Positions 2,457 to 20,980 of a stretch of 39,415 nt of DNA are shown piece after piece. Numbering within the stretch: the first letter of the stretch is position 1; each line of letters begins with the position of its first letter. Made by a program: the position numbers and the translations under genes. This DNA is from a virus. The notes under the pieces are model-generated. The model saw only the letters and a program-made list of their open reading frames with translations, was not told where the DNA came from and searched no databases. Where the stretch lies: IMG/VR virus record IMGVR_UViG_3300031688_000045, positions 1 to 39,415 of that record; one strand, written 5' to 3'.

Positions 2457-2547
2457 CTTTGTCACTTTTTATTCTGCTTATTGTTATTACTGTTATTGTT
2501 ACGATTGCTAAAAATGCTAGGTAGTACACGAGTATCTCTTCAATCAC
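2446..2547 (-). CDS. Putative 33-aa single-pass membrane peptide (holin- or spanin-like candidate)
   Basis: The endolysin stop TAG and a GTG start share one base (TAGTG, 2549-2545). The 33-codon frame runs to TGA at 2448-2446. It has a short acidic N-terminus, one hydrophobic stretch (about residues 5-24, rich in Ile/Val/Leu/Thr with two Tyr) and a charged C-terminus (RIKSDKDD), giving an N-out/C-in type layout by charge. Coupling to the peptidase stop and its place in the lysis region suggest a membrane lysis accessory. That is inference, because I recognise no family. An alternative GTG start lies seven codons into the ORF. Confidence 0.45.
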   Translation of the reverse strand: MIEEILVYYLAFLAIVTITVITISRIKSDKDDV

Positions 2548-3002
2548 TAGATAACCATGTATTTAGTTTTACCATCTTCCTTATATGCCTTTAAGCATCG
2601 ATTCCTATTGTCAATCTCATTGACGTAACTAATGTGTACCCAATTTGGATTATCATCCGTACCGAACTCCCAGATCATTTGATCAAAGTTTAAATTCTCT
2701 TTAATGTAAGCATACATCTCTGCGTTTGTTTTCTTACAACCTCCATCATCAATGTCCATGGCTTGTCCCTTACAATGTTGAGACGATGTTGATCCGCCAA
2801 TAGCTTTGTTCAAGGCTTTGCCTCTATAAAAACTATTAATTCTAATAGGTCCTGAAACCCACTCTCTCAATGGCTCAAATACTTGCTCGGCTAATTCCTT
2901 CATGTTAGCTAATTCAAACTGACTTGGATTATTATCCAAACCTCTTCGTGTTGCCGTTGTGCTATACACGCCTTCCTTATCGCTTATGTGTTTACTTATC
3001 AT
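2547..3002 (-). CDS. M15-family zinc peptidase, probable endolysin
   Basis: A 151-residue protein with the peptidase M15 (VanY / M15_3) signature. The segment INSFYRG (residues 55-61) precedes SQH76-x6-D83-I-D, and the second half has W111-E112 and W-V-H123. H76, D83 and H123 fit the zinc ligands and E112 the catalytic acid of L,D/D,D-carboxypeptidase-like endolysins. It would cut peptide crosslinks in host peptidoglycan during lysis. There is no signal peptide, so export would need a holin; the 33-aa membrane peptide immediately downstream and the anchored 94-aa protein are candidates. The start is preceded by an A/T-only leader (TATATTATATTA type) and no Shine-Dalgarno. It is located at the end of the late operon. 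Length is normal for a single-domain enzyme. Confidence 0.88.
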   Translation of the reverse strand: MISKHISDKEGVYSTTATRRGLDNNPSQFELANMKELAEQVFEPLREWVSGPIRINSFYRGKALNKAIGGSTSSQHCKGQAMDIDDGGCKKTNAEMYAYIKENLNFDQMIWEFGTDDNPNWVHISYVNEIDNRNRCLKAYKEDGKTKYMVI

Positions 3003-6005: not shown

Positions 6006-8783
6006 TTAGTTTTTTGTTATTTTTTTATTCACCGTTCCATCATTATAGATGTAAAAGAGAAGCTTGTTTTTAATTTCCTTAGTTGGTCTACCTAATATAT
6101 CTGTTATATATAATAGTTTCTTTTCTTCTTTAGTTCTACTCAGTAAAGGTCCGACATAAGTTCCATCACAATAATTATAAGTTAACAAACAAATATCATC
6201 CCAAGCGTTGCCACAGCAATAGTCATCTACTGATATCACCCATGCATAACAAGGATCGTTTAACCAAAAAGGATTTCCTGGACCAGTAATACAACCAGCA
6301 TCAAAAAGACAATCATTACTATTAATATTAGCACTATCAGAGTAGTTATAGGCGTTAGGATCCATGCAACCTGTAATGATAGCGATACACGATTGATTCT
6401 CCGTGTTAGCCAACGAGTCATAATTGAGAGCCGTAATATCCATACAGCCATATAGGAATTCAATACAACTAAAATCCTCTGTGTTCGACAAAGCATCATA
6501 GTTGAGCATCGAAGGATCCGTACAGCCGAATATAAAAGGAGAGCAGCTACTATTGTCAGCATTCGCTAGTGGGTTAAAATTAAACATTGTACTATCAGTA
6601 CAACCATATATAGGTAATATACAACTAAAATCATCCACGTTACAACTATCACAGTAATTTAGAGCTATTGGATCAATACACCCTAGTACAATAGATACAC
6701 AACTGCCATTATCAATATTCGCTAGAACATCATAGTTGTAAGCTAAAGAATCTAAACAGCCATATATAGGTATGATACAACTAAAATCATCGGTATTAGC
6801 GGTGGGGTCGTAGTTCAAAGCTATTGGGTCTGTACAACCCAAAATGATAGGCATACAAGAGTTGTTGTCTGTGTTTGCTAAAGCCGTGTAGTTGAGCATT
6901 GTTGAATCCGTGCACCCATAAATATATGGAATACAAGATCCATTATTTGTATTAGCTAAAGGATTGTAATTAAATTGACTTGGATTTATACAGCCATAAA
7001 TAAATGGAATACAACTACCATCACTAGCGTTAGCCAGGGGAGCATAATTAAATGCCGAGGTATCAATACATCCATAAACAACTCCGATGCAGCTACCATC
7101 ATCTATGTTGGCTAGAGAGTCATAATTTAAAGCTATAGAACTCATACATCCGTATGCGACGGCTATACAAGTATCTGGAGTGTTAGCTAGAGGTTCGAAG
7201 TTAAAAGCTAGTGACTCCATACATCCTAAGATTACAGGTAAACATCCACCGTTATCTATATTTGCAAGCGAATCGTAATTAAAAGCTAAAGAATCTATAC
7301 ATCCCCAAGCAGCTTGCGTAACACAATAACCATTATTAAAGTCAGCTACATATCCTTGGGTGTAGTACTCTAAGAATTGTGGGTCAGTACAACCCGGATT
7401 GTAATAACAACTACTATCACTAGTGTTGACTAGAGAATTATAATTAAATGCACTGATATCCATACAACCATAAACATATGGGTCACATATGGTGGGGCAA
7501 TTTGGTATTGCAATATATTTTTTTGGGAATATCTTTATCTTATCACTCCATGGGTTGGTACCCCCTGCAATTACAGTAACTCCCTCTGGGTTTACCAATT
7601 CAAATCCAACTTGATCTAAAGTGGCGTTAGAACTTGTTTGAGTGTAAGCTCTAATAGTAACCGGGTGATTGGACTTTAAGTTTAGTGATATACTATCAAT
7701 GTAAGAGCTTACGTTTGTATATGGGCCGAATGTATTTCCTAATTGGCTCACAACAACATATGCTCCTAGCCATCCATCTCCACCTCCATCTGTTAGCTTA
7801 AGTATATAACCACAACTATCATCCATCAACGGTATATTAGCTATAGAACTATAGTCGAACATCGAAGTGTCCATACAGCCTGCTGATTTCAAAGTACTAC
7901 ACAGTGACGAGTCTCTAACATCGGCTGAAGGGTTAAATTCTAAGTAGCTTGGGTCAGGGCATCCATAAGTAGGCTCCCAACTACAATCCTTCATTATAAA
8001 GGCATCTGACGAGTCTACACTACCAAAGTTTAAATTGTCTCCTGGCAACAAGCTATATATAACATCTCCACATTCATCTGTAATCAATACATCTCCATCA
8101 ACACCTCCAAAACAAGATCCACATATTCCATCTCCAAACAAATCGTAGATAAAGAACTTTACGGTATCACCAATAGGAACACATAAAGTATTGTTGTATA
8201 TGTTACCTGTTCCTTGGTTTTGAAAGAAGTTTTGTGAGACGTTAAGCAGGGTGTCTCCATTTTGATTTATAACATCTAATGATGTTTCTCCAGGGTATTG
8301 ATCTGGAGTTATAGCTATTATTATTGATGTTTTAGAACTATCTAAACAGTTGTCTTGTGGCGGCGGCATCGCAAGGCAATTAGCCGGTATGTTTGCTATG
8401 GGGTTGAAATTATCATAAGAAGCATCCATGCACCCTGAGATACAACTAAATTCATTTGCAAAAACCGTGTCAGTGAAACTACCATCTTGCATTTCTAATA
8501 AAAACCAAAAACCCTCTGAACTTGCAAACGGATCCCCCTGGTTGTAATTATTGATGAACACGTAATTAGTGTCTAACTGGTTAGTCCAAGAGTAAGAACC
8601 TATGTTGTAAGGTGTTCCTTTGTGATAAGTATCTATTACGCAACCACTGTCTAGCGACTCCCACTCTACAAGTGTCCTAGCATAACCAAAAGAACACGTG
8701 TCCGTAGCTATTAAAGTTGGAGCACAGTTCTGCCCAAACAGTGACACAGGTAGTAATAATAATAGTAGTAGTAGTTTTTTCAT
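6006..8783 (-). CDS. Secreted cysteine-repeat protein with signal peptide and T9SS-like C-terminal tail (925 aa)
   Basis: The ATG at 8783 is chosen because it starts a textbook signal peptide (MKKLLLLLLLLPVSLFG, cleavage before QNC) and lies 4 bases after the upstream stop. A start at 8852 would overlap that gene and bury the signal. The body has about 18 copies of a cysteine-rich unit (GC-x-D-x3-x-NY-x3-AN-x-DDGSC type). Five are dispersed in the first half among beta-rich segments, and 13 are near-contiguous with a ~26-residue period. The last ~37 residues (KKLLYITDILGRPTKEI then FYIYNDGTVNKKI) strongly resemble C-terminal tails of flavobacterial T9SS cargo as I remember them. The predicted route is Sec to the periplasm, then T9SS to the cell surface. 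Alternatively it is a virion fibre whose host-like ends are vestigial. It sits in the late operon between tail genes and the envelope-directed cluster. Confidence 0.75.
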   Translation of the reverse strand: MKKLLLLLLLLPVSLFGQNCAPTLIATDTCSFGYARTLVEWESLDSGCVIDTYHKGTPYNIGSYSWTNQLDTNYVFINNYNQGDPFASSEGFWFLLEMQDGSFTDTVFANEFSCISGCMDASYDNFNPIANIPANCLAMPPPQDNCLDSSKTSIIIAITPDQYPGETSLDVINQNGDTLLNVSQNFFQNQGTGNIYNNTLCVPIGDTVKFFIYDLFGDGICGSCFGGVDGDVLITDECGDVIYSLLPGDNLNFGSVDSSDAFIMKDCSWEPTYGCPDPSYLEFNPSADVRDSSLCSTLKSAGCMDTSMFDYSSIANIPLMDDSCGYILKLTDGGGDGWLGAYVVVSQLGNTFGPYTNVSSYIDSISLNLKSNHPVTIRAYTQTSSNATLDQVGFELVNPEGVTVIAGGTNPWSDKIKIFPKKYIAIPNCPTICDPYVYGCMDISAFNYNSLVNTSDSSCYYNPGCTDPQFLEYYTQGYVADFNNGYCVTQAAWGCIDSLAFNYDSLANIDNGGCLPVILGCMESLAFNFEPLANTPDTCIAVAYGCMSSIALNYDSLANIDDGSCIGVVYGCIDTSAFNYAPLANASDGSCIPFIYGCINPSQFNYNPLANTNNGSCIPYIYGCTDSTMLNYTALANTDNNSCMPIILGCTDPIALNYDPTANTDDFSCIIPIYGCLDSLAYNYDVLANIDNGSCVSIVLGCIDPIALNYCDSCNVDDFSCILPIYGCTDSTMFNFNPLANADNSSCSPFIFGCTDPSMLNYDALSNTEDFSCIEFLYGCMDITALNYDSLANTENQSCIAIITGCMDPNAYNYSDSANINSNDCLFDAGCITGPGNPFWLNDPCYAWVISVDDYCCGNAWDDICLLTYNYCDGTYVGPLLSRTKEEKKLLYITDILGRPTKEIKNKLLFYIYNDGTVNKKITKN
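6309..7304 (-). repeat. Thirteen near-contiguous copies of a ~78-base cysteine-repeat unit
   Basis: The translated units are about 26 residues long, each opening with an aromatic/Leu-Gly-Cys and closing with Ser-Cys or similar. Asn-Tyr/Phe and Ala-Asn lie in the middle and Asp/Asn near the end. Units vary substantially in codons and residues, so this is an old, diverged array rather than a recent DNA-level expansion. One unit has three extra-position cysteines (NYCDSCN, near 6650). Five more dispersed units lie between 7350 and 8435. Confidence 0.85.
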
Positions 8784-8787
8784 AATC

Positions 8788-9150
8788 TTAACATTTCCAT
8801 CTTGACCTAGCGGCCTTACCTCTCTCGCCAGTCCAACCCTTGGATCTAGCACAAAATGACTTTCTTCTTCCAGCAGCTTTGCTACCAGCTTTAACGTCTC
8901 CTGTTACAGCTGTCTTTAACTTACTTCCTGGGTTTTCTCTTTTATAATCAGCAACTCCCTTAGAGGTCATACCAGCACCTTCTTCTGGTGTTCTAAAAGT
9001 TCTACCTTTACCTTTAGTAGTCTTACGCATTGTTAATGGTGATCCATCATTTCTTCTTCTACCACAACTAGTAACGGGGAAAGGATTGCCACCTTGGACA
9101 TATCCTCTACTTTTCTCGAACATACTGTTTTGTTTTTCAGTTCCTGGCAT
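8788..9150 (-). CDS. DUF6321-like basic protein (120 aa)
   Basis: A 120-residue, strongly basic protein. The C-terminal half (EEGAGMTSKGVADYKRENPG, then SKLKTAVT, GSKAAGRRKSFCARS and GERGKAARSRWKC) matches the conserved pattern I associate with DUF6321, found in phages and marine bacteria. Cysteines lie at about 29, 99 and 120. The basic charge and Gly-Lys-rich character suggest nucleic-acid or virion-DNA association, but no function is established to my knowledge. It is tightly packed: 2 bases after the thioredoxin-like gene and 4 bases before the secreted repeat protein. Confidence 0.7.
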   Translation of the reverse strand: MPGTEKQNSMFEKSRGYVQGGNPFPVTSCGRRRNDGSPLTMRKTTKGKGRTFRTPEEGAGMTSKGVADYKRENPGSKLKTAVTGDVKAGSKAAGRRKSFCARSKGWTGERGKAARSRWKC

Positions 9151-9797: not shown

Positions 9798-10904
9798 TTA
9801 AAATATAACGTAGTTTAATCCTAATTTAAAGTCGTACCATTCTCTGTTCCAGTACTTATTATATTTCCCCTCAAGAAAATATCCAAATGATTTACTGTGC
9901 TTGATGCCGTATATGAATCCAACTGAGTAATCCACCCATTGTTTACCCTCGTATTTGTGATAAGAGTAATCCCCACCCGCGTCATAATGATAAGGCATGA
10001 AACTACCCCAAGCGTGTGTCCAGCTTTTCTTCCTGTATTTATAGTAATCAAACCCTAGAACAAGTGAATGCTGTAGAGTTTGTTTTAATTCGTTTCTTTT
10101 CTTTTCTGTATAATCAGACAAAACTCCTGGTATAACAACCGCATCCCAAACCTCTGGGCTTGTCGCTACTAGCTCTCCTGACGGTGAGAAGTACTCACTG
10201 TTGTGAACGTCCACATTATACCCTTCTTGTAGAGCCAGATAAGTATAATGAATACTTCCATTATCTAATAACCACTCCTCAAGTGGATCATATCCATATG
10301 GCTCCGCGAGTCTTTGTGCTGCCCCGATATTCCACGATAGGTTTTTGTTAACCTTCATTCTATATCTTTCCGATGCTTCAAAGTATTTTATGTCAGCAAA
10401 ACCATTCTCTAGATACTCTACTTTAAGAGCAAAGAAGTTTATGCAAAGTTTATCTTGACAACCATCATCAGAACTATACCTGATAAAATGATGTTGATCT
10501 AAGTAGCTTTTACCTTCTTGTCTCGTATAGTCTATTTCAAACAAATATTCAACCCCTCTTGATTTACCCACAATGGCCGCATCACTGTAATTTGCTTCGG
10601 TTCCATCGTAAAATGTTTGGGCTTTATTTTCATAGCCGAATCTAGCTATTTTACGTAGACCTATAGCGAAGTTATAATCGAAAGGAGTTGATATTGTCTG
10701 TGTTGATAATCCGTTGTTTACAGAGTAAACGTCCACATCAGAAATCGATGTACCACCATTTACCGCAGCGTAGAACGTAGAAAACTTAAAAAGCTTCTTA
10801 ACACTCTCTTTACTAAGCGATTGAGCTGTTACTAGGTTTGATACTAGCAAAAGCAATATTATTAATCTTTTCACCATCTTTATATTATCACTTAATTTGT
10901 TCAT
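9798..10904 (-). CDS. Signal-peptide protein, predicted outer-membrane beta-barrel (368 aa)
   Basis: A hydrophobic export signal lies near the N-terminus (MVKRLIILLLLVSNLVTAQ from Met10; cleavage after TA). Met1 at 10904 follows an AAAAA leader; Met10 at 10877 is an equally plausible start with a cleaner signal peptide. The mature part is aromatic-rich with many alternating amphipathic strands (GVEYLFEIDYTRQEG, later YSVGFIYGIKHSKSFGYFLEG) and ends in KLGLNYVIF. A terminal Phe after a beta strand is the classical outer-membrane barrel signal. Two cysteines (about 150 and 155) could pair. A periplasmic or outer-membrane location in the infected host is inferred; possible roles are receptor masking or lysis support. 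It follows the giant polyvalent gene by 7 bases. Confidence 0.62.
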   Translation of the reverse strand: MNKLSDNIKMVKRLIILLLLVSNLVTAQSLSKESVKKLFKFSTFYAAVNGGTSISDVDVYSVNNGLSTQTISTPFDYNFAIGLRKIARFGYENKAQTFYDGTEANYSDAAIVGKSRGVEYLFEIDYTRQEGKSYLDQHHFIRYSSDDGCQDKLCINFFALKVEYLENGFADIKYFEASERYRMKVNKNLSWNIGAAQRLAEPYGYDPLEEWLLDNGSIHYTYLALQEGYNVDVHNSEYFSPSGELVATSPEVWDAVVIPGVLSDYTEKKRNELKQTLQHSLVLGFDYYKYRKKSWTHAWGSFMPYHYDAGGDYSYHKYEGKQWVDYSVGFIYGIKHSKSFGYFLEGKYNKYWNREWYDFKLGLNYVIF

Positions 10905-10911
10905 TTTTTAC

Positions 10912-13900
10912 CTAATCGTGGTAGTAACAAAGACCGCTTTTAGCAGACGTTTGCATACCGCATTGTTTACCACCCTTCTTAATCTTTTTACACTGAGATT
11001 TTTTACCAGTAGAATTTTGAGTAGCTTTTTCATGAACCGTACAGAATGATTTACCTTCAACTATAACATTACCACATCTACCACCGCTTTTACCCACGGC
11101 AGAACAAACCCCATCTTTTTTACTTTTCTTTTTGTTCTCCTCAATAACAGCTACATTCTCTTTTGCTTTCTCCTTCTTTTTTTCCTCCTTCTTAACTTTA
11201 GCTCTTTCCTTAGTAGCGATTTTCTTCTCTTCTTTTACCTCTGTTTTGATAGCTTCGATGTCTGGGTCTTTGATTCCTAGATCCCAGGTGTTTTGTCCTA
11301 ATAACAAAGCAACACGTTGCCACCATTCGTGACTAGAATCCATAGCGTTATCTAATTGTAGCATTATATTGGATATTCTACCAAGAGGTGCGTTTGTTGC
11401 TCCCTCAATAACATTACCAATTCCAGACCAAGCAGGATTATCCAAAGACAATCCTCTTTTTTCAAACACTCCTCTATTGAACTCCTCAGTTTGTATAGAC
11501 GAATATATTTTACGTAGCTTAGATCCTATAGGTGGTGAGAATGATAGTAAAGTTAATATAGTGTAAGTATGGTCGGAGTTAAACCCCTTCTCTCTTTGCT
11601 CGAGATATTCCATTATAGTGTTCTTAACAGTACCAATAGCTTTTCCACCATATCCAATACCAGTTAACCAAGAGTCAACCATTTGGTTTAATATTCTTTC
11701 TTTCTTTCCATCAAACTCTTCCTCGTCATCTTCCCCTAACGAAGCATATATAGCGGATTGCAATGCTCCAAATATTATACTTTGAACAACTCCGTAATAA
11801 ACTATTTTAGATATATGTGTCTTATAATCACCTCTACCGTTAGCTAGATCTCTAGTTGCTTTATTCATTACTCTCGCGTACTGCATTGGAGTATTTTGAA
11901 ACGAAAGAATCAATCTACCAAGTGGCGATGCTTGTTGTTGAGATATCATATCAGGTCTTGCTGATTGCTGAGATACTTCTGTTGTTTCTCTGAAATCTAA
12001 AAATGCTTGTGACTCAGCTTGCTCTTGAGACATTCCTTCTTTGACATACTTCTTAGCTCTATTTCTATAAAATGGAGCTCCACCAATTGATATAGCAAAA
12101 CTATCCGCTAATTGAGTTGGTGTAAATCCTTTTTTAAGTAAGTAGTTTAAAGCTGCTTTAGCTTTGTTCTCAGCGCCAGCAACAGCTGCTGAAAGCTCAG
12201 CTTCATTTATACCTCTTTGATTACCTGATCTCCTTTGCTTTAGGTAAGGAGAATTCCATATCATCGAGAAGTCAGTCCAGAATTGTTTTTGATTCCCAAA
12301 TGCTGCGGCAGCTTTCAGTGGGTTATTATCAGTCCAGTTAATATAATTTGTAGCTGAAATTGTCTGAAGAGTTGCAGATCGCATGTTAAGGAACATAATA
12401 GCTCCAACTGAGTTGTTAACCCAATTCATGTACGTATTTACTAACCTACCCCCTCCAGCTGGTCTGTTTTTACCAGTTTTCATTCGGTACAATATATCCT
12501 CCAAAGCTTCTCTAAACTTACCGCCGTATATAGCTTCGATTTTATTTAAGTTTTCCTTAGAAAACACCTGATCAGCGTTCTGTTGCCATTCAGCTAAGAA
12601 GTCAGCTCTAGCGTCTCCAATAGCTCCATCACTTAGTAGATCAGAAGCTATATTCTCAGCCAACCAGTAATCTCCAGGCTTAGAGTATCCAGCATCTTTT
12701 TTAGAGATAACACCGATACCCTCGGCAAACGCTTTTAAATCAGAGTTACCCTCAACATGCTCCACTAGGGATTTTAAATCTCTTTTTGACAAGCCAGGCA
12801 CTTCAAACCCAGCTTTATCCCAAAGGTAAACTCTAGCAGCTTGGTCATTAGTGAATTCTAGCCCATCTATTTTTTTGTTTATTATCTTTTTTACCCCAGG
12901 GAAAGCTTTTTTCAGGTTAACATAATCATCACCCGCGTTCTGCCTCGATGAATTAATTTCATCTATACCTCTAGCAAATGGATCAATTAAAGCTTTTTTA
13001 AAGAAAGCCATGTCTTGCTCTCCTTTCTTACCTTTACCTAAGAAATTGTACAGTAAACCTACAAAATCTTGAGCAGACGGAGGTATTACGCTTTTGTATT
13101 TGGATTTGTGACCTCTAATTTTAGCCTGAGCATCTGAGAATACCTTTTTAGATTCAATCCCGGTTGTTTGCTCTATTATGCTATTGAAGTTTTCATTTAT
13201 CGATTTACTAAACTTAACCCTTGCTTGCTGAACTTTAGACTTCACATCGAATTGATTAAGCATATTCTTAACGGCGGTGACATTTTGCAAGGCATCATCA
13301 GCGAAGTAGAAGTCGTTGTAACCATCCCCAACCTTTTCAGCCATCCAGTTTGCTTTAGCTTCAGCGGTGGAATTCGCTAGTCCAGTAATATTCTCTAAAG
13401 GTATGTTCAATCCATTCGCTTGAAGGAATGTAAATATAGCCGGAGCAGCTTCTGATGGCCTAGCTGTTAATACGAACATATTCTCAGGACCAAACTTACC
13501 TTGTAATTTTAATGCTTTTTGGAACAGTGGAGCTATCTTACCTTTTACAACTTTATTGAACTCTGAAAAATCCCACGCATAACCTAACTCAGTTAGCTCT
13601 TGATATGTACTAGCGTACTGCTCTGCATTTAAAGTACCTGTAGTTCCGTCTGGTTTTGTGAATCTTATTAAAGATTTACTGGTGGCTAGGGTATCATCAA
13701 AATCTAAAACTGTAATGCCTTTTGTAGGGTTGTTAGTTGATCTAGAGAAGTTAATAGCTTTGTTTAGTTTTCTTCCTTCAATTGATTTTGAAAAGTTAAT
13801 GCCAAGAGCTTTTTGTAGATCTTCTTTTATAGTAATGTCTAAAATTTTCGGTTGTTTATTAAGAGCGTCTTTACAGGCTTTGTTAAATTGCTTTAAATTT

Positions 13901-16900
13901 TTAGTGGCATCTTTAGCATAACCATCCTGCATGTTCTCAATAGCCACGTCTAGAAAGCCTGATATTTCGTCAGCTTGTTCATTGTTTAGATTTTCAAAAC
14001 CATCAGAAAGCTTTAATAACGCGTCTTCACCCATTTTTTTGGTAGCTATTGAGCCCTGTTTTAGCAGAGGTCTAAGGCCTCTTGGTAATTTTTCGCTTTT
14101 TACATTATTCAGCTTTGATATCTTAAATTGAACTCCGAGGCTAAGTGATATTACCTTGTTACCATTAACTATTTTAGAACCTCCGTTTCTAAACGTAAAA
14201 TTAACATCTACATCCGCATCTAGCCTAGGTAAATTTAATATAGACTCACTATCAAGACTAAGAGACATATTACCAGTTTTTGTACCAACAAAACTAAGCG
14301 ATCTAACACCAATACCGTTTTTATCTTTTTTGCTCTTGTAGTGGTTCTCTATTACGGCTTGATCTGCTTTTAGTTGGTAAAACATTTTATTTCCAAAACC
14401 CTTCTTGTCCATGTAGAGCTCGTATGGAATGTTCTGAGGCTTACCGCTAGTAACATCATAATCTATAAGTGTATATTTTTCGCTAGAATCTTTGATTTTT
14501 AAGTTCAGCTTTTCAATACCTTTGTTTACAAAGTCTACTCGCTTTTTATAACCCTTCATAAATCCCTTCACATCAACTTGTTCTAATAAGTTGTTATGTG
14601 TGTCTGTTGCAAATTCAATCTTTCCGTTTTTAAGGTTTGAAATAGATATGCTACCCATAAAAGCGGTTACAGAAGCTTTTAACTCGTGGTTTTCCACTTT
14701 ACCATTGTATTCAAAAACAAAATCCGCCATACCATCAACCTCACTTGCTATTTCAGATAAAACTTTTAATCCTTCTATGCCATTTTTCATGAAGTAATTA
14801 GCGAAGGCTTGTTCCCAAATTCTTCCTTTGTCTACAAAGCTTTGTGGCTCGTTAGTGTAAGGGTTTACGTAACCAGTCCAAATAGTGCCTTTTTGAACCA
14901 ATGGTTTTCCATTGTTTCCCCTGTAAAATATAGCACTGAATTCCTGAGACAATCTAGTTGGTAGTATTTTGTTTTTAGAATACTTAATAGAGTCAAAACT
15001 TTTTTGCTCAACCTGAGTGTTTTCAATGGCTCTCGATACTTTTCTTAACTTAGCTTCTGCGATTTTGTCTAAGTGCTTTGAATTAGCTTCGATGTAGTTA
15101 TCTGTCGCTATCTTCGCTTTCCTTCTAGCTATACGTCTTATCAAAGCGGTTCTTCTTTCCGTTAAGTTACGCTCATTGCCCTCTAAGAACCACCTTATAT
15201 ATTCACGTTTGTTAGTTGTATTTTCATAAACATCTTTTACGTAGTTTGTTACCTTATCCGTTTTGGGACTAACACCTTTATACTTCTCTGTACGTATTTT
15301 TTTCTTTTCAAACCACGGTCTATAAGCGTTCCTTATTGTTTCCATACCTAGGCTTTGCACTATCTCTAGGTATTCGTTTCTTATAAAAGCTTCGTATTCA
15401 GCTGTTGGACCTCTTTTTCCTGTTTTCTTATCCTTAGCTATTTTACCAATAATACCGTCAAGCGATTTACGTATATCACCTAGTATAAGCTTTTCCATTT
15501 GAACTTCAACATCATCAGGACTTTTTTCTAATAAAGCCTCAACCTCAGCCTCTATCTCAGCATCAACCAAACCATCTTCTACTTCTATGTCAAAATCTCT
15601 TAGATTTCTAGCTTTACTCTTATCTTCTACCTCTATTGACGTCGATGTATCTTCTAATTCCTTAGCCTCCTTAGTGTCTATTGTAGTTGTTTTCTTTAAT
15701 TTCTCCCCAGCTTCAAACAACTTTTTCTTGGCGTCCAACTTACCGAACCTAGTGTTAGCGAATACAAATTCACCAAAACCCTCTGGCCCAACAACTGATC
15801 CATCCTTTCTTGTTGCTTCTGGATCAAAATTAATAAGCCTGTTTTGAACAGATTTTATAGCATCATTATATTCATCGCCTATAGACTTAGACTTGACGTA
15901 ATTACTAATTACGCCATTATCCATTGTGGCCATAAATACGGCTGGGAACAACCTGCGATTCTGTACGAACGCGTTGTAATCCTCTTTTGTCTTTATATCG
16001 CTTGGTATAAGTTCATTTATAGCCTCAAGAGGCGTTGCTTTTGACAGCTGCATGCCTGGTTTCACTTCGCTCCCTCCATCGACAAGCTTTCCTTTAGCTC
16101 CTTTTTTCGCTACATTCAATATAGCTTTATTTATCTTACCATCCTTTATGTTCTGGCTATAATCTTTTACAAAGTTAAAGACATCCTTACCGGTGTTAAG
16201 TTTAATTCTACCAAGAGCAGTGTTTGGAGCAATTTTCTGAAAAAATCTTCTTATATTGTCTCCGATCTTGGTAAAGAGAGTCTCTTCAAATTTTAAACTA
16301 CCATCTACGATAGATTCAGACATTATAGTGATCACCTCTTCACCAAAGTTATCATCTCTCACGAATTCCCCGTCTTTTGTGAATTTCCCATATGCAGCTA
16401 ATCTTTTGCCCAGCCTGCTCTTATCACCCTCTATATTAGCAACGTGATCTATCAACGCATCTCCCAAGTTGTTTTGTACATCTTTATCGTTTCCAATAGT
16501 CTTAAATAAAACTGCATGAGCAAACTCGTGTGCCTCGGTAGCAACCAATTTCTTATCTTTGTTCAGGATAATATTAAAACTTCCGTCAGACTTTTGAGCT
16601 ATAAAACCATATTCATTAGAAGCAGTTTTTGAATCAAATCCCTCTTCTTCAATATCAGCAATTTCTTTAGTAGACATTTCAGTGACCTCACCCTTTAAGT
16701 CACCTTTTTCTATAGCTCCTTTTATAGTAGTTTCTATCTTTTTTATCTTAGCTTTCTCAGCTTGCTTGATAACTGAGTTTGATATCTTCTCGTCAATCTC
16801 TTTTATTTGATTATCTATACCGACAGAGATAGCTTTATCTTTACCCTGCTTTTGCTTTACTAACCCTTGTTTTTGTATTAGTAAATCTACTTGAGAATCA

Positions 16901-19236
16901 GAAACATTTTCCGGAGCGGAATTAACAGCGTTAATTATACTTTGTCCGTAATTTTTCGCATCATTAATTTGATTAATGGTTGCTTGATGGTTATCTTTAG
17001 ATTTTTGAGTTCTAGCATTCTCAAACTTTGCGTTAGCAACCTTTAGGTTGTCATCTAAGACATCTATAATGTCTTGACCTCTATCTTTATATTGTTGGTA
17101 TACTTGTTTCTTAGCGTTTTTAATATCATTTACAGTACCTATGCTCCCTAAACTCCCAGACAGCATTAGAGTTGCTGCTATCGTTTCTTTTTGAGTTCTT
17201 AAGTCTAAAATATCAGGGGAATGCTGTAGTCCAACTGAGTACTTAGCAATATCTCCAAAAGCTAGTTCTAATTCCTCCTCACCAAGTTCCTTCCCCATGT
17301 TGATGACGAATTGCTTCGTTGCGCTACCAATAGCTTTTTTAGTAGCGGAATTCCTTAGGTTACTCACAAAACCTTTTAGTATCGTTTTACCAGCAGTTGA
17401 ACCTAGGAAGTTCGCATCAGGCATTATCATTTGAGACAAGCCAGTTCCAAACGATTTCATACTGCTATAAGCATATGACTGGCCATCGTCGAGTCCCAAG
17501 TCTTTTCCCTCGTGAAAATTATCATTAACAGTCATTCTATAAGAAGCGTCAACCATTCTGATAGTGGATCTACCCTTGGGTGATGTTAGGAATCTTGGAC
17601 CCACAGTGTTCCACAGGCTTTTAACTGGTTTTAAGTTTCCTTTTCTAGCCGACAAAATCACACCCACAGTGAAGGGTAGCATGTTTGCTATTGTTTTAGT
17701 GGTAGATCTAGCGTTTATAGTGTAGTTACCATCCTTGTCTAATATATCGGCACCATAATCAGACGTTCCAGCCCAATTGAAATTCGCGTAATTCTTGTAC
17801 GAGTCTGAAACAGCATCATGCCCATCATAGTAGCGACTCTCCTCGTTCACAGTCTCGTCCATTAAACCAGCCAGCCAAACACTAGTCCCTATTGTAGCAT
17901 CAGAAGCTATGTTAACACCCCCTTGAACAAAGGTTGCTACGCCATCGTAAGTTCCGCCCCAAAAACCTCTTTCCTTAACATATTTATCTCTCCAGCCCTT
18001 GTAGTCGTCGGTCATCTCGAAGTTATTGCTAATAGTTCCATCTACAGCATTAAAACCTAACTCGGTAAATGTCGTCTCTAACCTACTTTTTGCTGACAAA
18101 ACTAAATCATTTACTTTCTCTCTCTCACCGTCTAAAGCATTGTATTGGTTAACTAAGTCATTATATTCGTTAGCTTCTCCTTCGGTCTCGAATGGCAGTA
18201 GCAATCCCTCGTCATCGTACTTGTTCGCAGCTTTAATCCTAGCATCTAAATCATCTCTCTTTTTAACAAAGTCCAAAACCACAGCGCTGTTATAAACGTC
18301 GTTAGCTTTTTCGTACTCAACTCCTATCACTTCGTGCTTAGCGTTTCTTATTATATCTTCCTTCTCACTAAGAGTATAGTTGTTCTCAGCTGCTCTACCC
18401 ATGTCTTTGATAGAAAGGTCTTCTATTATCTGCTGTTCAACCAAGTTGTTTAGCTCGGTAGATTCTTCCTCCGTATCACTATAGCTCGAGTAAGTGTCAC
18501 TAACGTTAGCTGTAGATATGTTATCTAAAGCCTTGTTAACGGTTTCTACCTCGTAATTAGCAGTATTAATCCTTGTTTGCTCAGGATTATTCTTTTCGTA
18601 AAAATCAACTTGTTTTTTAATCTCATTTTCGTCCCCGCCATTGTCTACAACTCTATTAGTTATCTCTGCAACCTTATCCTCGTGTTGAGTAACAATATTA
18701 ATGTTATTTTGGTACGACTTATTTCTTGGATTAACCTTAGACTCGGTGGTTGCGCTTTTAATACTTTCTATTTCCTTTAATATATCAGCCGCTTCTTGAG
18801 ACATAGAGGGAGCTTCCGCTAACATAGCTTCTAACTCCACTATTTTAGGCGAACTCGCTAACTCCAAATCAGTAGTCACACTAGCGATGTCTTGTTTTGT
18901 TAGTGGTACTTCAATCTCGGTATTTTCTAAAGCTTGCTCTAACTTTGATTTCTTTGACGCAAACCAGTCTGGCCCAGACATATAATCCCTAATCTTCTTA
19001 GCCTCGGGATCCACAACCACAACTTCTTCTTGTATACCCGTAGAATCTCCCTCCCCATTGGATGCCGTATCTTCTACCTTCACAGCGACATCCGCCTGTG
19101 CTGGTGCTTCCTTTACTTCCTCAGTCTCCTCTACCTCAATGTTAAATTCACTTTCTGGAGTAGCATCTAACACGGCTAATTCTTCGTCTGTAGCTCCGTT
19201 TTCTACTGCAGCTAATATTACCTCTGATTTCGTCAT
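10912..19236 (-). CDS. Giant polyvalent internal virion (ejection) protein (2774 aa)
   Basis: A very large, mostly helical protein in the position of ejected internal proteins. Visible domains in order: acidic N-terminus (1-80) and coiled-coil regions; HEFAH zinc-metalloprotease motif (H903, E904, H907); PD-(D/E)xK-nuclease-like segment with D1505 and E1518-L-K1520 after an E-rich helix; HAD-hydrolase-like segment with DFDDTLA (D1845, D1847), then VLTARP, a later Lys and FADDA; Ala/Gln-rich helical region around 2250-2550 with a hydrophobic stretch (VVQSIIFGALQSAIYA); Lys/Glu-rich linker; and two Cys-His fingers of identical spacing C-x9-C-x10-C-x2-H at the C-terminus. The motifs are seen; the enzyme activities are inferred. 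It resembles the large polyvalent proteins of phages that co-inject activities with DNA. It could be proteolytically processed. The adjacent 317- and 256-aa genes probably encode its partners. Confidence 0.75.
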   Translation of the reverse strand: MTKSEVILAAVENGATDEELAVLDATPESEFNIEVEETEEVKEAPAQADVAVKVEDTASNGEGDSTGIQEEVVVVDPEAKKIRDYMSGPDWFASKKSKLEQALENTEIEVPLTKQDIASVTTDLELASSPKIVELEAMLAEAPSMSQEAADILKEIESIKSATTESKVNPRNKSYQNNINIVTQHEDKVAEITNRVVDNGGDENEIKKQVDFYEKNNPEQTRINTANYEVETVNKALDNISTANVSDTYSSYSDTEEESTELNNLVEQQIIEDLSIKDMGRAAENNYTLSEKEDIIRNAKHEVIGVEYEKANDVYNSAVVLDFVKKRDDLDARIKAANKYDDEGLLLPFETEGEANEYNDLVNQYNALDGEREKVNDLVLSAKSRLETTFTELGFNAVDGTISNNFEMTDDYKGWRDKYVKERGFWGGTYDGVATFVQGGVNIASDATIGTSVWLAGLMDETVNEESRYYDGHDAVSDSYKNYANFNWAGTSDYGADILDKDGNYTINARSTTKTIANMLPFTVGVILSARKGNLKPVKSLWNTVGPRFLTSPKGRSTIRMVDASYRMTVNDNFHEGKDLGLDDGQSYAYSSMKSFGTGLSQMIMPDANFLGSTAGKTILKGFVSNLRNSATKKAIGSATKQFVINMGKELGEEELELAFGDIAKYSVGLQHSPDILDLRTQKETIAATLMLSGSLGSIGTVNDIKNAKKQVYQQYKDRGQDIIDVLDDNLKVANAKFENARTQKSKDNHQATINQINDAKNYGQSIINAVNSAPENVSDSQVDLLIQKQGLVKQKQGKDKAISVGIDNQIKEIDEKISNSVIKQAEKAKIKKIETTIKGAIEKGDLKGEVTEMSTKEIADIEEEGFDSKTASNEYGFIAQKSDGSFNIILNKDKKLVATEAHEFAHAVLFKTIGNDKDVQNNLGDALIDHVANIEGDKSRLGKRLAAYGKFTKDGEFVRDDNFGEEVITIMSESIVDGSLKFEETLFTKIGDNIRRFFQKIAPNTALGRIKLNTGKDVFNFVKDYSQNIKDGKINKAILNVAKKGAKGKLVDGGSEVKPGMQLSKATPLEAINELIPSDIKTKEDYNAFVQNRRLFPAVFMATMDNGVISNYVKSKSIGDEYNDAIKSVQNRLINFDPEATRKDGSVVGPEGFGEFVFANTRFGKLDAKKKLFEAGEKLKKTTTIDTKEAKELEDTSTSIEVEDKSKARNLRDFDIEVEDGLVDAEIEAEVEALLEKSPDDVEVQMEKLILGDIRKSLDGIIGKIAKDKKTGKRGPTAEYEAFIRNEYLEIVQSLGMETIRNAYRPWFEKKKIRTEKYKGVSPKTDKVTNYVKDVYENTTNKREYIRWFLEGNERNLTERRTALIRRIARRKAKIATDNYIEANSKHLDKIAEAKLRKVSRAIENTQVEQKSFDSIKYSKNKILPTRLSQEFSAIFYRGNNGKPLVQKGTIWTGYVNPYTNEPQSFVDKGRIWEQAFANYFMKNGIEGLKVLSEIASEVDGMADFVFEYNGKVENHELKASVTAFMGSISISNLKNGKIEFATDTHNNLLEQVDVKGFMKGYKKRVDFVNKGIEKLNLKIKDSSEKYTLIDYDVTSGKPQNIPYELYMDKKGFGNKMFYQLKADQAVIENHYKSKKDKNGIGVRSLSFVGTKTGNMSLSLDSESILNLPRLDADVDVNFTFRNGGSKIVNGNKVISLSLGVQFKISKLNNVKSEKLPRGLRPLLKQGSIATKKMGEDALLKLSDGFENLNNEQADEISGFLDVAIENMQDGYAKDATKNLKQFNKACKDALNKQPKILDITIKEDLQKALGINFSKSIEGRKLNKAINFSRSTNNPTKGITVLDFDDTLATSKSLIRFTKPDGTTGTLNAEQYASTYQELTELGYAWDFSEFNKVVKGKIAPLFQKALKLQGKFGPENMFVLTARPSEAAPAIFTFLQANGLNIPLENITGLANSTAEAKANWMAEKVGDGYNDFYFADDALQNVTAVKNMLNQFDVKSKVQQARVKFSKSINENFNSIIEQTTGIESKKVFSDAQAKIRGHKSKYKSVIPPSAQDFVGLLYNFLGKGKKGEQDMAFFKKALIDPFARGIDEINSSRQNAGDDYVNLKKAFPGVKKIINKKIDGLEFTNDQAARVYLWDKAGFEVPGLSKRDLKSLVEHVEGNSDLKAFAEGIGVISKKDAGYSKPGDYWLAENIASDLLSDGAIGDARADFLAEWQQNADQVFSKENLNKIEAIYGGKFREALEDILYRMKTGKNRPAGGGRLVNTYMNWVNNSVGAIMFLNMRSATLQTISATNYINWTDNNPLKAAAAFGNQKQFWTDFSMIWNSPYLKQRRSGNQRGINEAELSAAVAGAENKAKAALNYLLKKGFTPTQLADSFAISIGGAPFYRNRAKKYVKEGMSQEQAESQAFLDFRETTEVSQQSARPDMISQQQASPLGRLILSFQNTPMQYARVMNKATRDLANGRGDYKTHISKIVYYGVVQSIIFGALQSAIYASLGEDDEEEFDGKKERILNQMVDSWLTGIGYGGKAIGTVKNTIMEYLEQREKGFNSDHTYTILTLLSFSPPIGSKLRKIYSSIQTEEFNRGVFEKRGLSLDNPAWSGIGNVIEGATNAPLGRISNIMLQLDNAMDSSHEWWQRVALLLGQNTWDLGIKDPDIEAIKTEVKEEKKIATKERAKVKKEEKKKEKAKENVAVIEENKKKSKKDGVCSAVGKSGGRCGNVIVEGKSFCTVHEKATQNSTGKKSQCKKIKKGGKQCGMQTSAKSGLCYYHD

Positions 19237-19242
19237 ATAATT

Positions 19243-20196
19243 TTATTTACTATATTTTGCAATTAAATCCTGTGCTAACGTTGATTTTGTTTCTTTTGTG
19301 GCTGCTTCTCTTTTCTCAAATTCTGCATCGTGCATTCCTAACACCGTGTCGACAAACCCATCATTGAAGTCAACATCTGTTTTATTTAGGCTATAAAGCT
19401 CCGCGTACTCTTTAGATTCCTTAAACTCAGGAGTGATTTCTATACCAGTTTGATTTGAAATAAACATGTCGATTAATTCTGGATTCTGATACATGTAATC
19501 CTTAACAGCTGTTTTACCATCTTTACCTCTAACTAGCTTATTCAGATCTTTCTCTAGAGTGGGTCTAGTGACATTATTATATTCTTCAATACTAATAGCT
19601 CCATCTCCGTGTGCAAGCTCTCTAGTGTCAACTAAAGCAGCATCTACCACGTCCTCTAACTCGGGGTTATATTCACCGCCAGTATCTATAGCATCCCAAG
19701 CGTTTCCTCCATACATGAGTCTCGGCACGCCACTTTCATCTTCCACTATCAAGCCTTCTTCACCAAATGTCCCGTTAGCGAAGTTGTGGAAGTTTGTAGC
19801 TTGTTCGCTTGTGTTTGAGTTAGCGTATGTCTCATTTACTTCAGTGTCTAATAGTTGTTTTCTTTTGGTAGCCGCTCCCTCAAGGTCTTCGTTTAGTTTT
19901 TTTAATCCTTTTTCGATGTTATTAATCCCATCAATAGCTTCGTTGTAACCCTCAGCATTAGAGCCTAACGCTTTAATTTTTTCAAACTCAGCTAGTTCCA
20001 ATTTCTTCAAAGGCAAGTACTGTGTGAGTTGATTATTAATCGACTCTGAAAACTTAGTTATCGTGGTTCCGTTAGGATTTGCGCTTATTAAATCTTGGGT
20101 CTTTTGAGTAGCATCTTGTATTGGTGAGTTCTTTACCTCCTCACCCGCTATATTAGAAACACCAAAACCATATCCACCTATTTGTTTGTTTGACAT
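19243..20196 (-). CDS. Predicted internal virion protein (317 aa)
   Basis: An acidic, soluble, mostly helical protein starting MSNKQIGGYGFGVSNIAGEE. Residues ~60-115 look coiled-coil (KLELAEFEKIKAL, then INNIEKGLKKLNEDLEGAA). No enzymatic motif or membrane segment is visible, and I recognise no family. It lies between the 256-aa Ala/Gln-rich protein and the giant polyvalent protein, with 6- and 13-base gaps. It therefore most likely belongs to the ejection apparatus, analogous in position to the T7 internal core genes. The leader is A/T-only. Confidence 0.5.
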   Translation of the reverse strand: MSNKQIGGYGFGVSNIAGEEVKNSPIQDATQKTQDLISANPNGTTITKFSESINNQLTQYLPLKKLELAEFEKIKALGSNAEGYNEAIDGINNIEKGLKKLNEDLEGAATKRKQLLDTEVNETYANSNTSEQATNFHNFANGTFGEEGLIVEDESGVPRLMYGGNAWDAIDTGGEYNPELEDVVDAALVDTRELAHGDGAISIEEYNNVTRPTLEKDLNKLVRGKDGKTAVKDYMYQNPELIDMFISNQTGIEITPEFKESKEYAELYSLNKTDVDFNDGFVDTVLGMHDAEFEKREAATKETKSTLAQDLIAKYSK

Positions 20197-20209: not shown

Positions 20210-20980
20210 TTAAGCATATTTCCCCATAAAACCTTCCACTCCCTTACCGAGAAGCCCACCCGCACCAGCACTCGCCAGTCCAGAGGTAACTCCACCAAGT
20301 ATTTGACTCATCCCACCTGCACTCTGAGCCTTAGCAGCTGCGGCAGCAGCATTACTCGCTGATAATTGTCCAGACGCTAATCCCATTAAACCCTCTTGCT
20401 TTTGATATTTCAACCCTCGAGCTGCAGCCGCACCACTCAGTCTAGATGCTTGTGCTTGTTGTGCTCCTGTTGCGATTTGCATTTCAGCTTGTGCTTCAGC
20501 TGTTTGTTTTTGACCGGCTCCCTGAGCTGCCATCACTTGGTTTCGTGATTCCTGTTGCCCAATAGATGCGGATGCTTGTCTCGCCGCGTTTTGACCTTGA
20601 TTAGCCATTGCTTGCGCTAAACTAGCGATACCAGACCCACCAGCGGCGCCTTGCATGCTCTGCATTATGTTAGCTCTATTTTGATTCCCTTGCTCTGCTT
20701 CAAACTGAGCTTGTTGTTGGTTAACGGTTAAGTCCTCCATCGTATTCTCATAGCTAGTTTGTATGCCAGAATACGCATTAGTAACGTTAGCGTTTAGATT
20801 ACTAGTGTCTAGTTTACCATAAGCTTTCTTTTGCTTGTTCATTTCTATCCTAGCTTTCTCTTGGGCTCTAGCGGCTGCTTTAGCGGCTTTATTCCCTCCA
20901 ATCATATTCATGACTCCCCCAACAACTCCAAGAGCTGCTCCGAGGAACCTTGCAGGACTTACTTTTTTACCTATTGCCAT
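20210..20980 (-). CDS. Ala/Gln/Gly-rich internal virion protein, T7 gp14-like by character (256 aa)
   Basis: A 256-residue protein. A Gly-rich hydrophobic segment at about 12-29 (FLGAALGVVGGVMNMIGG) precedes a basic Ala-rich helix (AAKAAARAQEKARIEMNKQKK). A long Gln/Ala/Ser-rich middle follows, and the end is a second Gly-rich hydrophobic stretch (ILGGVTSGLASAGAGGLLG). This two-hydrophobic-ends, Q/A-rich-middle composition is typical of podovirus ejection proteins that insert into the host envelope (T7 gp14 type). The identification rests on composition and on its place just before the 317-aa and 2774-aa genes. The leader is A/T-only without Shine-Dalgarno. Confidence 0.6.
   Translation of the reverse strand: MAIGKKVSPARFLGAALGVVGGVMNMIGGNKAAKAAARAQEKARIEMNKQKKAYGKLDTSNLNANVTNAYSGIQTSYENTMEDLTVNQQQAQFEAEQGNQNRANIMQSMQGAAGGSGIASLAQAMANQGQNAARQASASIGQQESRNQVMAAQGAGQKQTAEAQAEMQIATGAQQAQASRLSGAAAARGLKYQKQEGLMGLASGQLSASNAAAAAAKAQSAGGMSQILGGVTSGLASAGAGGLLGKGVEGFMGKYA

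Follow-up and report, generated by a model that had tools for sequence, protein, structure and literature searches.

Why phages inject giant proteins that carry several enzymes, and whether such proteins are processed, is a question to which the survey of polyvalent proteins of phages and conjugative elements (Iyer et al. 2017, PMC5512222) could only suggest an answer, namely processing driven by the zincin, the commonest hub domain of these proteins. The stretch of viral DNA studied here (39,415 nucleotides, analysed at full length and called the window below) raises this question in a concrete form. Its gene at 10912-19236, on the minus strand, begins with ATG and encodes a modular protein of 2774 aa that belongs to a family of 102 analysed proteins; the open reading frame was confirmed. 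The original prediction, which left the strand unnamed, had described protease, nuclease-like and HAD-like motifs and a pair of fingers in this chain, and all of them were located where it had placed them: HEFAH at residues 903-907, D1505, E1518-L-K1520, DFDDTLA at 1845-1851, followed by LTARP and FADD, and two fingers of identical C-x9-C-x10-C-x2-H spacing starting at residues 2711 and 2749. Searched alone against Pfam, PHROGs, NCBIfam, PDB and cultured phages, the protein gave no reliable match, and the reading of its motifs therefore rests on comparison within its family. The Pfam names MpsC, NNH2 and Acb1 were below their cut-offs for this protein and were disregarded.

We considered the position of the gene. 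On the minus strand, TerL is followed by the portal (phrog_6547), a 391 aa protein, a major-capsid-like protein (phrog_13704) and head/ring-type proteins, then by a 2306 aa muzzle protein (Pfam crAss_MUZ, 1.5e-12, and crAss_MUZ_C, 2.7e-12), a 256 aa protein, a 317 aa protein and, finally, the 2774-aa gene. The 256 aa product (20210-20980, minus strand) resembles internal virion proteins (phrog_805, E 3.5e-4) and has one hydrophobic stretch, at residues 10-30; the 317 aa upstream neighbour (19243-20196, minus strand) corresponds to a medium-sized protein found at this place in relatives. The portal and the muzzle match those of 87 cultured podoviruses of Flavobacterium, Cellulophaga, Tenacibaculum and Maribacter. 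The muzzle block of the cultured relatives that were checked is succeeded by a giant protein, of 3859 (MW202828), 1829 (Panino), 3694 (elemoC), 2482 (Gundel_1) or 1439 (phi46:3) residues, and several of these giants are annotated as structural, according to the annotations as deposited. Judged by gene order, the 2774-aa gene lies at the place of an ejection protein, within a head/tail module akin to those of cultured Flavobacteriia podoviruses and crAss-like phages, and the internal-protein position that had been proposed for it is borne out by this order and by the giants at the same place in cultured relatives.

Other genes of the window deserve a brief mention. A 368 aa gene downstream of the giant (9798-10904, minus strand) has a signal-like N terminus and a beta-barrel-like C terminus ending in ...GLNYVIF, is kept beside the giant in five members of the family (L003, L004, L006, L008 and L010), and perhaps encodes a phage outer-membrane protein. 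A secreted-looking protein of 948 aa (6006-8852, minus strand, GTG start) contains many GCxDxxAxNYxxxANxDDGSC repeats, and the muzzle protein carries this repeat at its own C terminus. A ribonucleotide-reductase-like protein is encoded on the opposite strand (39-1913, plus), and Maribacter phage Panino, too, has a gene annotated as a ribonucleotide reductase. The product of 2547-3002 (minus strand), which matches the cell-wall endopeptidase family Peptidase_M15_3 (3.6e-15), is a probable endolysin.

A search with a profile of the C-terminal region gave 10 stretches in genome bins and at least 537 confirmed ones in IMG/VR, 80 of which were retrieved; the analysed set of 102 core-bearing proteins includes 13 from the first search. 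The family is large and mainly marine, and the phage of the window is itself a marine flavobacterial one. All of its members have an all-helical core (residues 2012-2665; 11242-13203, minus strand), with identities to the window of approximately 43-95% across the aligned set, whereas the N-terminal region (residues 1-863; 16648-19236, minus strand) is variable, only some members sharing it, at approximately 30% identity. The AlphaFold model of the core is all helical as well, with a pLDDT of 81. Foldseek comparison of this model to PDB produced no fold match: the proteins returned were helical but unrelated, transporters for the most part, at TM-scores of about 0.1. Likewise, no T7 gp16-type match was found among the solved ejection proteins in PDB. 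Comparison to BFVD yielded close relatives and, in addition, distant fold matches (1e-12 to 1e-6, TM approximately 0.4-0.66) to giant phage proteins, including those named ART-PolyVal and large polyvalent associated. As far as the predicted model goes, the fold of the core has a remote relationship to that of proteins named polyvalent. This strongly conserved core was absent from the original prediction and is newly recognised here.

Ahead of the core, the comparison of family members places a HAD domain directly, a zincin further upstream and exchangeable cassettes between the two; a basic or finger-bearing tail follows the core. The zincin-like metallopeptidase domain (residues 864-1059; 16060-16647, minus strand) was delimited by the family alignment, and its model has pLDDT values mostly of 80-94. 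In this model, the HEXXH motif (HEFAH; 16516-16530) lies within one helix, and E967 (16336-16338), the candidate third zinc ligand corresponding to the gluzincin Glu, lies in a later helix; H903, E904, H907 and E967 are invariant in 59 of 59 aligned zincins. An HExxH motif is present upstream of the core in 86 of the 87 N-terminally complete proteins, compared to approximately 2 expected by shuffling. Together with the invariance of the putative catalytic residues, this excess indicates that the motifs are not due to chance. Of the 59 zincins, 10 match Peptidase_M78 (best 7.7e-5), and Foldseek of the protease/nuclease model (pTM 0.37) against the structure database gave no significant match. 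The metalloprotease that had been predicted is supported by the motif and by the Glu of the second helix, with which the secondary structure of the model agrees. In addition, 11 complete members without the common zincin (L043, L025, L051, L064, L036, L032, L009, L023, L019, L082 and L059) carry another HExxH ahead of the HAD, mostly of the HExxHxxD-like type; members of this kind are included in the count of 86. By sequence, this is a replacement of the protease by a non-homologous or very diverged one; the 2017 survey (PMC5512222) describes a class of polyvalent proteins in which HEXXH is followed, at a distance of three residues, by Asp.

Between the zincin and the HAD, the sequence turns over among members of the family. 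In the window protein, this zone contains a variable cassette, V1 (residues 1060-1418; 14983-16059, minus strand), delimited by the family comparison and the model, and a second cassette, V2, with a PD-(D/E)XK nuclease-like core (residues 1458-1575; 14512-14865, minus strand) that has the alpha-beta-beta-beta order in the model. When this region was searched alone, one close relative only was found, and the other homologues were obtained by iterating a profile within the family. The resulting 17 modules have D1505 (14722-14724) and both E1518 and K1520 of the E1518-L-K1520 motif (14677-14685) invariant, in spite of the fact that the modules other than that of L001 are just 12-28% identical to the window. 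Hjc resolvases lead the matches of the profile to PDB, at E values of 0.1-1, and Hjc entries recur in the Foldseek results of the protease/nuclease model, at E above 1. We assign V2 to the PD-(D/E)XK-like modules with high, albeit not complete, confidence: the invariant residues and the order of strands agree with the original prediction, whereas the Hjc profile matches stay at E 0.1-1 and the Foldseek matches are not significant.

The HAD-superfamily phosphatase domain (residues 1835-2008; 13213-13734, minus strand) contains DFDDTLA from residue 1845, LTARP and FADD. HAD motifs I-IV (DxDxT, S/T, K and DD, in this order) are invariant in nine of nine aligned domains. A strict pattern of these motifs is found in 89 of the 97 members with the domain, and the eight misses differ only in the letters around the motifs, so that all four motifs are kept in essentially 97 of 97. 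All nine uninterrupted HAD domains tested match PHROG 415, "polynucleotide kinase" (4e-5 for the window and 5.6e-8 for the best, a relative), and this match, along with the kept motifs, points to HAD, as had been predicted. In six members (L010, L022, L027, L059, L102 and L106), a P-loop kinase (AAA_33, 4e-13; phrog_505, PNK) is inserted at the same position, shortly after motif I; in L010, this arrangement is seen at residues approximately 2584-2766. Because Zeta-toxin and PNK models fit this kinase about equally, a role in end healing is a suggestion only. At the same slot, L011 (residues approximately 1650-1775) has an ART-like insert, for which the ART-PolyVal match is weak (0.0076). Since either a kinase or an ART-like domain is found at the same place, the cap position of the HAD is an insertion slot, which is newly recognised here; the window protein has no kinase, and the insert is found in relatives only. 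Thus, the family resembles the T4-type polynucleotide kinase/phosphatase in the PHROG 415 matches and in the addition of a P-loop kinase by six relatives; however, the T4-type enzyme is a tandem fusion, whereas the kinase of the relatives sits inside the HAD, after motif I. A further cassette, of approximately 470 aa, is located exactly at the HAD/core junction of L027 (residues 2818-3288) and L059 (residues 3211-3691), with GIQFSK at its C-terminal end. In L027, the HAD ahead of this insert also ends in FSR.

That the most conserved part of the protein is the non-enzymatic core might indicate an ordinary ejection or structural protein with decayed remnants of enzymes. We find this highly improbable, given that, within each enzyme module, conservation is highest at the catalytic residues, which show no erosion.

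The core is followed by a Lys/Glu-rich linker (residues 2666-2710; 11107-11241), the first, DUF5763-like, finger (residues 2711-2735; 11032-11106) and the second finger (residues 2749-2773; 10918-10992), all on the minus strand. The spacing is the same as that of DUF5763 (PF19067), for which the finger pair of the window scores 11.8 bits, below the cut-off of 26.3, whereas the pair of L060 scores 36.3 bits, above it. One or two window-like CxxxH fingers were found in 32 of the 98 members with an intact C terminus, and the remaining members have a Lys/Arg-rich tail (43% Lys+Arg versus 15% overall). That a basic tail takes the place of the fingers speaks for binding of nucleic acids by the tail, although it is no proof of it. 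The proposal that the fingers bind DNA fits this swap; the fingers themselves are optional.

A tail that is either basic or finger-bearing, a PNK-type HAD that suits end healing, and Holliday junction resolvases as the nearest profile matches of the nuclease are also what could be expected if the core and the nuclease serve the genome of the phage itself (anchoring, end protection or resolvase-like processing) rather than host targets. This possibility seems to us rather unlikely, because the nuclease cassette is found in 17 members only and the others have different sequence there, unlike what a core genome function would require.

By sequence comparison, several unrelated enzyme domains reside in one phage polypeptide, and the window protein is, in this sense, a polyvalent protein. 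The family shares with polyvalent proteins the disparate enzymes in each chain, the zincin, the ART-like module (L011) and the likeness of the core fold in BFVD; it differs in that no LPD, ART or RNAP family was detected in the window protein with Pfam, and the zincin of the window protein is recognised by its motif and through its family. The text of the survey (PMC5512222) contains none of the terms "Haloacid", "HAD phosphatase", "REase" and "zinc finger", and "restriction endonuclease" is found in its references only. Two syntenic giants of cultured phages, both annotated as structural, are instructive. Gundel1_74 of Tenacibaculum phage Gundel_1 (2482 aa) has a homologous part of the core (3.7e-12), HEFGH and a Lys/Arg-rich tail; unlike the window protein, it has no HAD or PD-(D/E)XK profile match, and just a core stretch aligns. 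The giant of Flavobacterium phage elemoC (YP_010356528.1, 3694 aa) has a homologous zincin (6e-12), but neither a core nor a HAD match and no excess of FS[KR], a motif that is considered below. The likeness to the crAss001 cargo (crAss cargo proteins, PMC10172136) and to the gp14/gp15/gp16 ejectosome of T7 consists in the place after the muzzle/ring genes, the helical core and a small internal-virion-like protein two genes upstream; unlike in those systems, no RNAP or lysozyme/transglycosylase domain was found in the window protein, and its core has no fold match in PDB.

We consider it probable (roughly 0.8) that the window protein is a polyvalent virion cargo protein, consisting of a core, enzymes and exchangeable cassettes, that is ejected with the genome. 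It would be packaged in the head as an ejection protein of the T7 gp16-like or crAss-cargo-like type, attached through its core and tail to DNA or the ejection assembly. Gene position and the annotation of cultured relatives suggest that the enzymes enter the cell along with the genome, where, at an early stage of infection, nucleic acids or their ends may be the substrates of the nuclease and the PNK-type HAD phosphatase.

Many of the modules end in a short motif. In the window protein, we identified a degenerate LSK at residues 1064-1066 (16039-16047), YSK at 1419-1421 (14974-14982), FSK at 1815-1817 (13786-13794), FSR at 1830-1832 (13741-13749) and, at the HAD/core junction, FSK at 2009-2011 (13204-13212; present in 66 of 97 members), all on the minus strand. 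In 100 distinct proteins, [FY]S[KR] was observed at 423 sites, compared to 170 by shuffling, and no tripeptide of the variable zone is more strongly over-represented than FSK (99 versus 22.5); the excess of FSK at the HAD/core junction is in part due to shared descent. FSK also ranks first of 788 tripeptides at the ends of homology blocks (52% versus 6.6% in the background), and 243 blocks versus 44 end within 5 aa of a motif, with the reservation that related pairs do not yield independent block ends. Single-linkage clustering of the cassettes chained them into one group and was left out of the counts. In the other minus-strand ORFs of the window, the motif is at the level of chance (6 versus 5.2). 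The consensus is [VIL]-[KQM]-[FY]-S-[KR]. The recurrence of FS[KR] at module ends, together with the swapping of cassettes, is newly recognised from these comparisons, and no earlier description of FS[KR] module ends or of HAD cap insertions was found in the literature. We also noticed that the 317 aa protein upstream of the giant has the C terminus ...LIAKYSK, that its relatives have similar LI.KY.K ends, and that these ends resemble the module-end motif.

Homology at the DNA level breaks near the same sites. The window and L001 lose DNA homology at codon 1067, beside LSKA; compared to L003, there is no DNA match from codon 68 to codon 1826, and DNA identity of 88% is found from codon 1826 on, i.e., it resumes four codons before FSRS at 1830. 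These breaks, and the ends of homology blocks at FS[KR], could mean that the motif is a recombination joint, a short shared piece of DNA used for module exchange and having no function in the protein. However, Ser, Phe and Lys are encoded at the sites with approximately background codon frequencies, Ser by codons of both families, and most of what lies upstream of the sites is unrelated in sequence (124 clusters for 162 sites). Near-background codons and unrelated upstream sequence indicate conservation at the protein level. A recombination joint is improbable in our estimate, and the codon usage led us to discard DNA recombination sites as the origin of FS[KR].

What the motif does in the protein bears directly on processing. 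Speculatively, the modules would be set free by cleavage of the FS[KR] linkers, either by the embedded zincin or by another protease. In its full form, this idea describes a self-processing effector polyprotein delivered by the virion, in which the zincin or a partner protease would cut the [VIL]-x-[FY]-S-[KR] tag and free an exchangeable magazine of enzymes, including the end-healing HAD/kinase and the nuclease, as separate proteins; we hold this to be a tentative and somewhat doubtful proposal. Alternatively, the chain could remain uncut, the zincin being an injected effector directed against host proteins, and FS[KR] a structural cap, an ejection/unfolding signal or a leftover of module joining. 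This is a real possibility, if one with less than even odds: the N4 vRNAP is packaged unprocessed despite its zincin domain (PMC5512222), and the type of zincin and the presence of FS[KR] are not tightly linked. Members with the second zincin type have 2.2 FS[KR] versus 0.86 expected; they have somewhat fewer sites (p 0.049), and the junction site is present in 7 of 11 of them versus 53 of 74 (p 0.72). If the common zincin alone were responsible for the cutting, the motif would be expected to be lost with other zincins, but the junction site is kept about equally. Conversely, the retention of the protease in 86 of 87 members, against the turnover of the other cassettes, is more in keeping with a housekeeping role than with that of one effector among many, and the site examined (residue 1419) is within a predicted disordered linker (residues 1408-1430, pLDDT below 50). 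Taken by itself, self-processing is at least as likely a role for the protease as the attack on host proteins.

For the question of injected multi-enzyme giants, the family offers specific candidate sites of cleavage, a protease embedded in nearly all members and an anchor that is strongly conserved. These results also suggest that, in some phages, the virion may bring in an end-processing enzyme of the PNK type, whose action would precede all phage gene expression.
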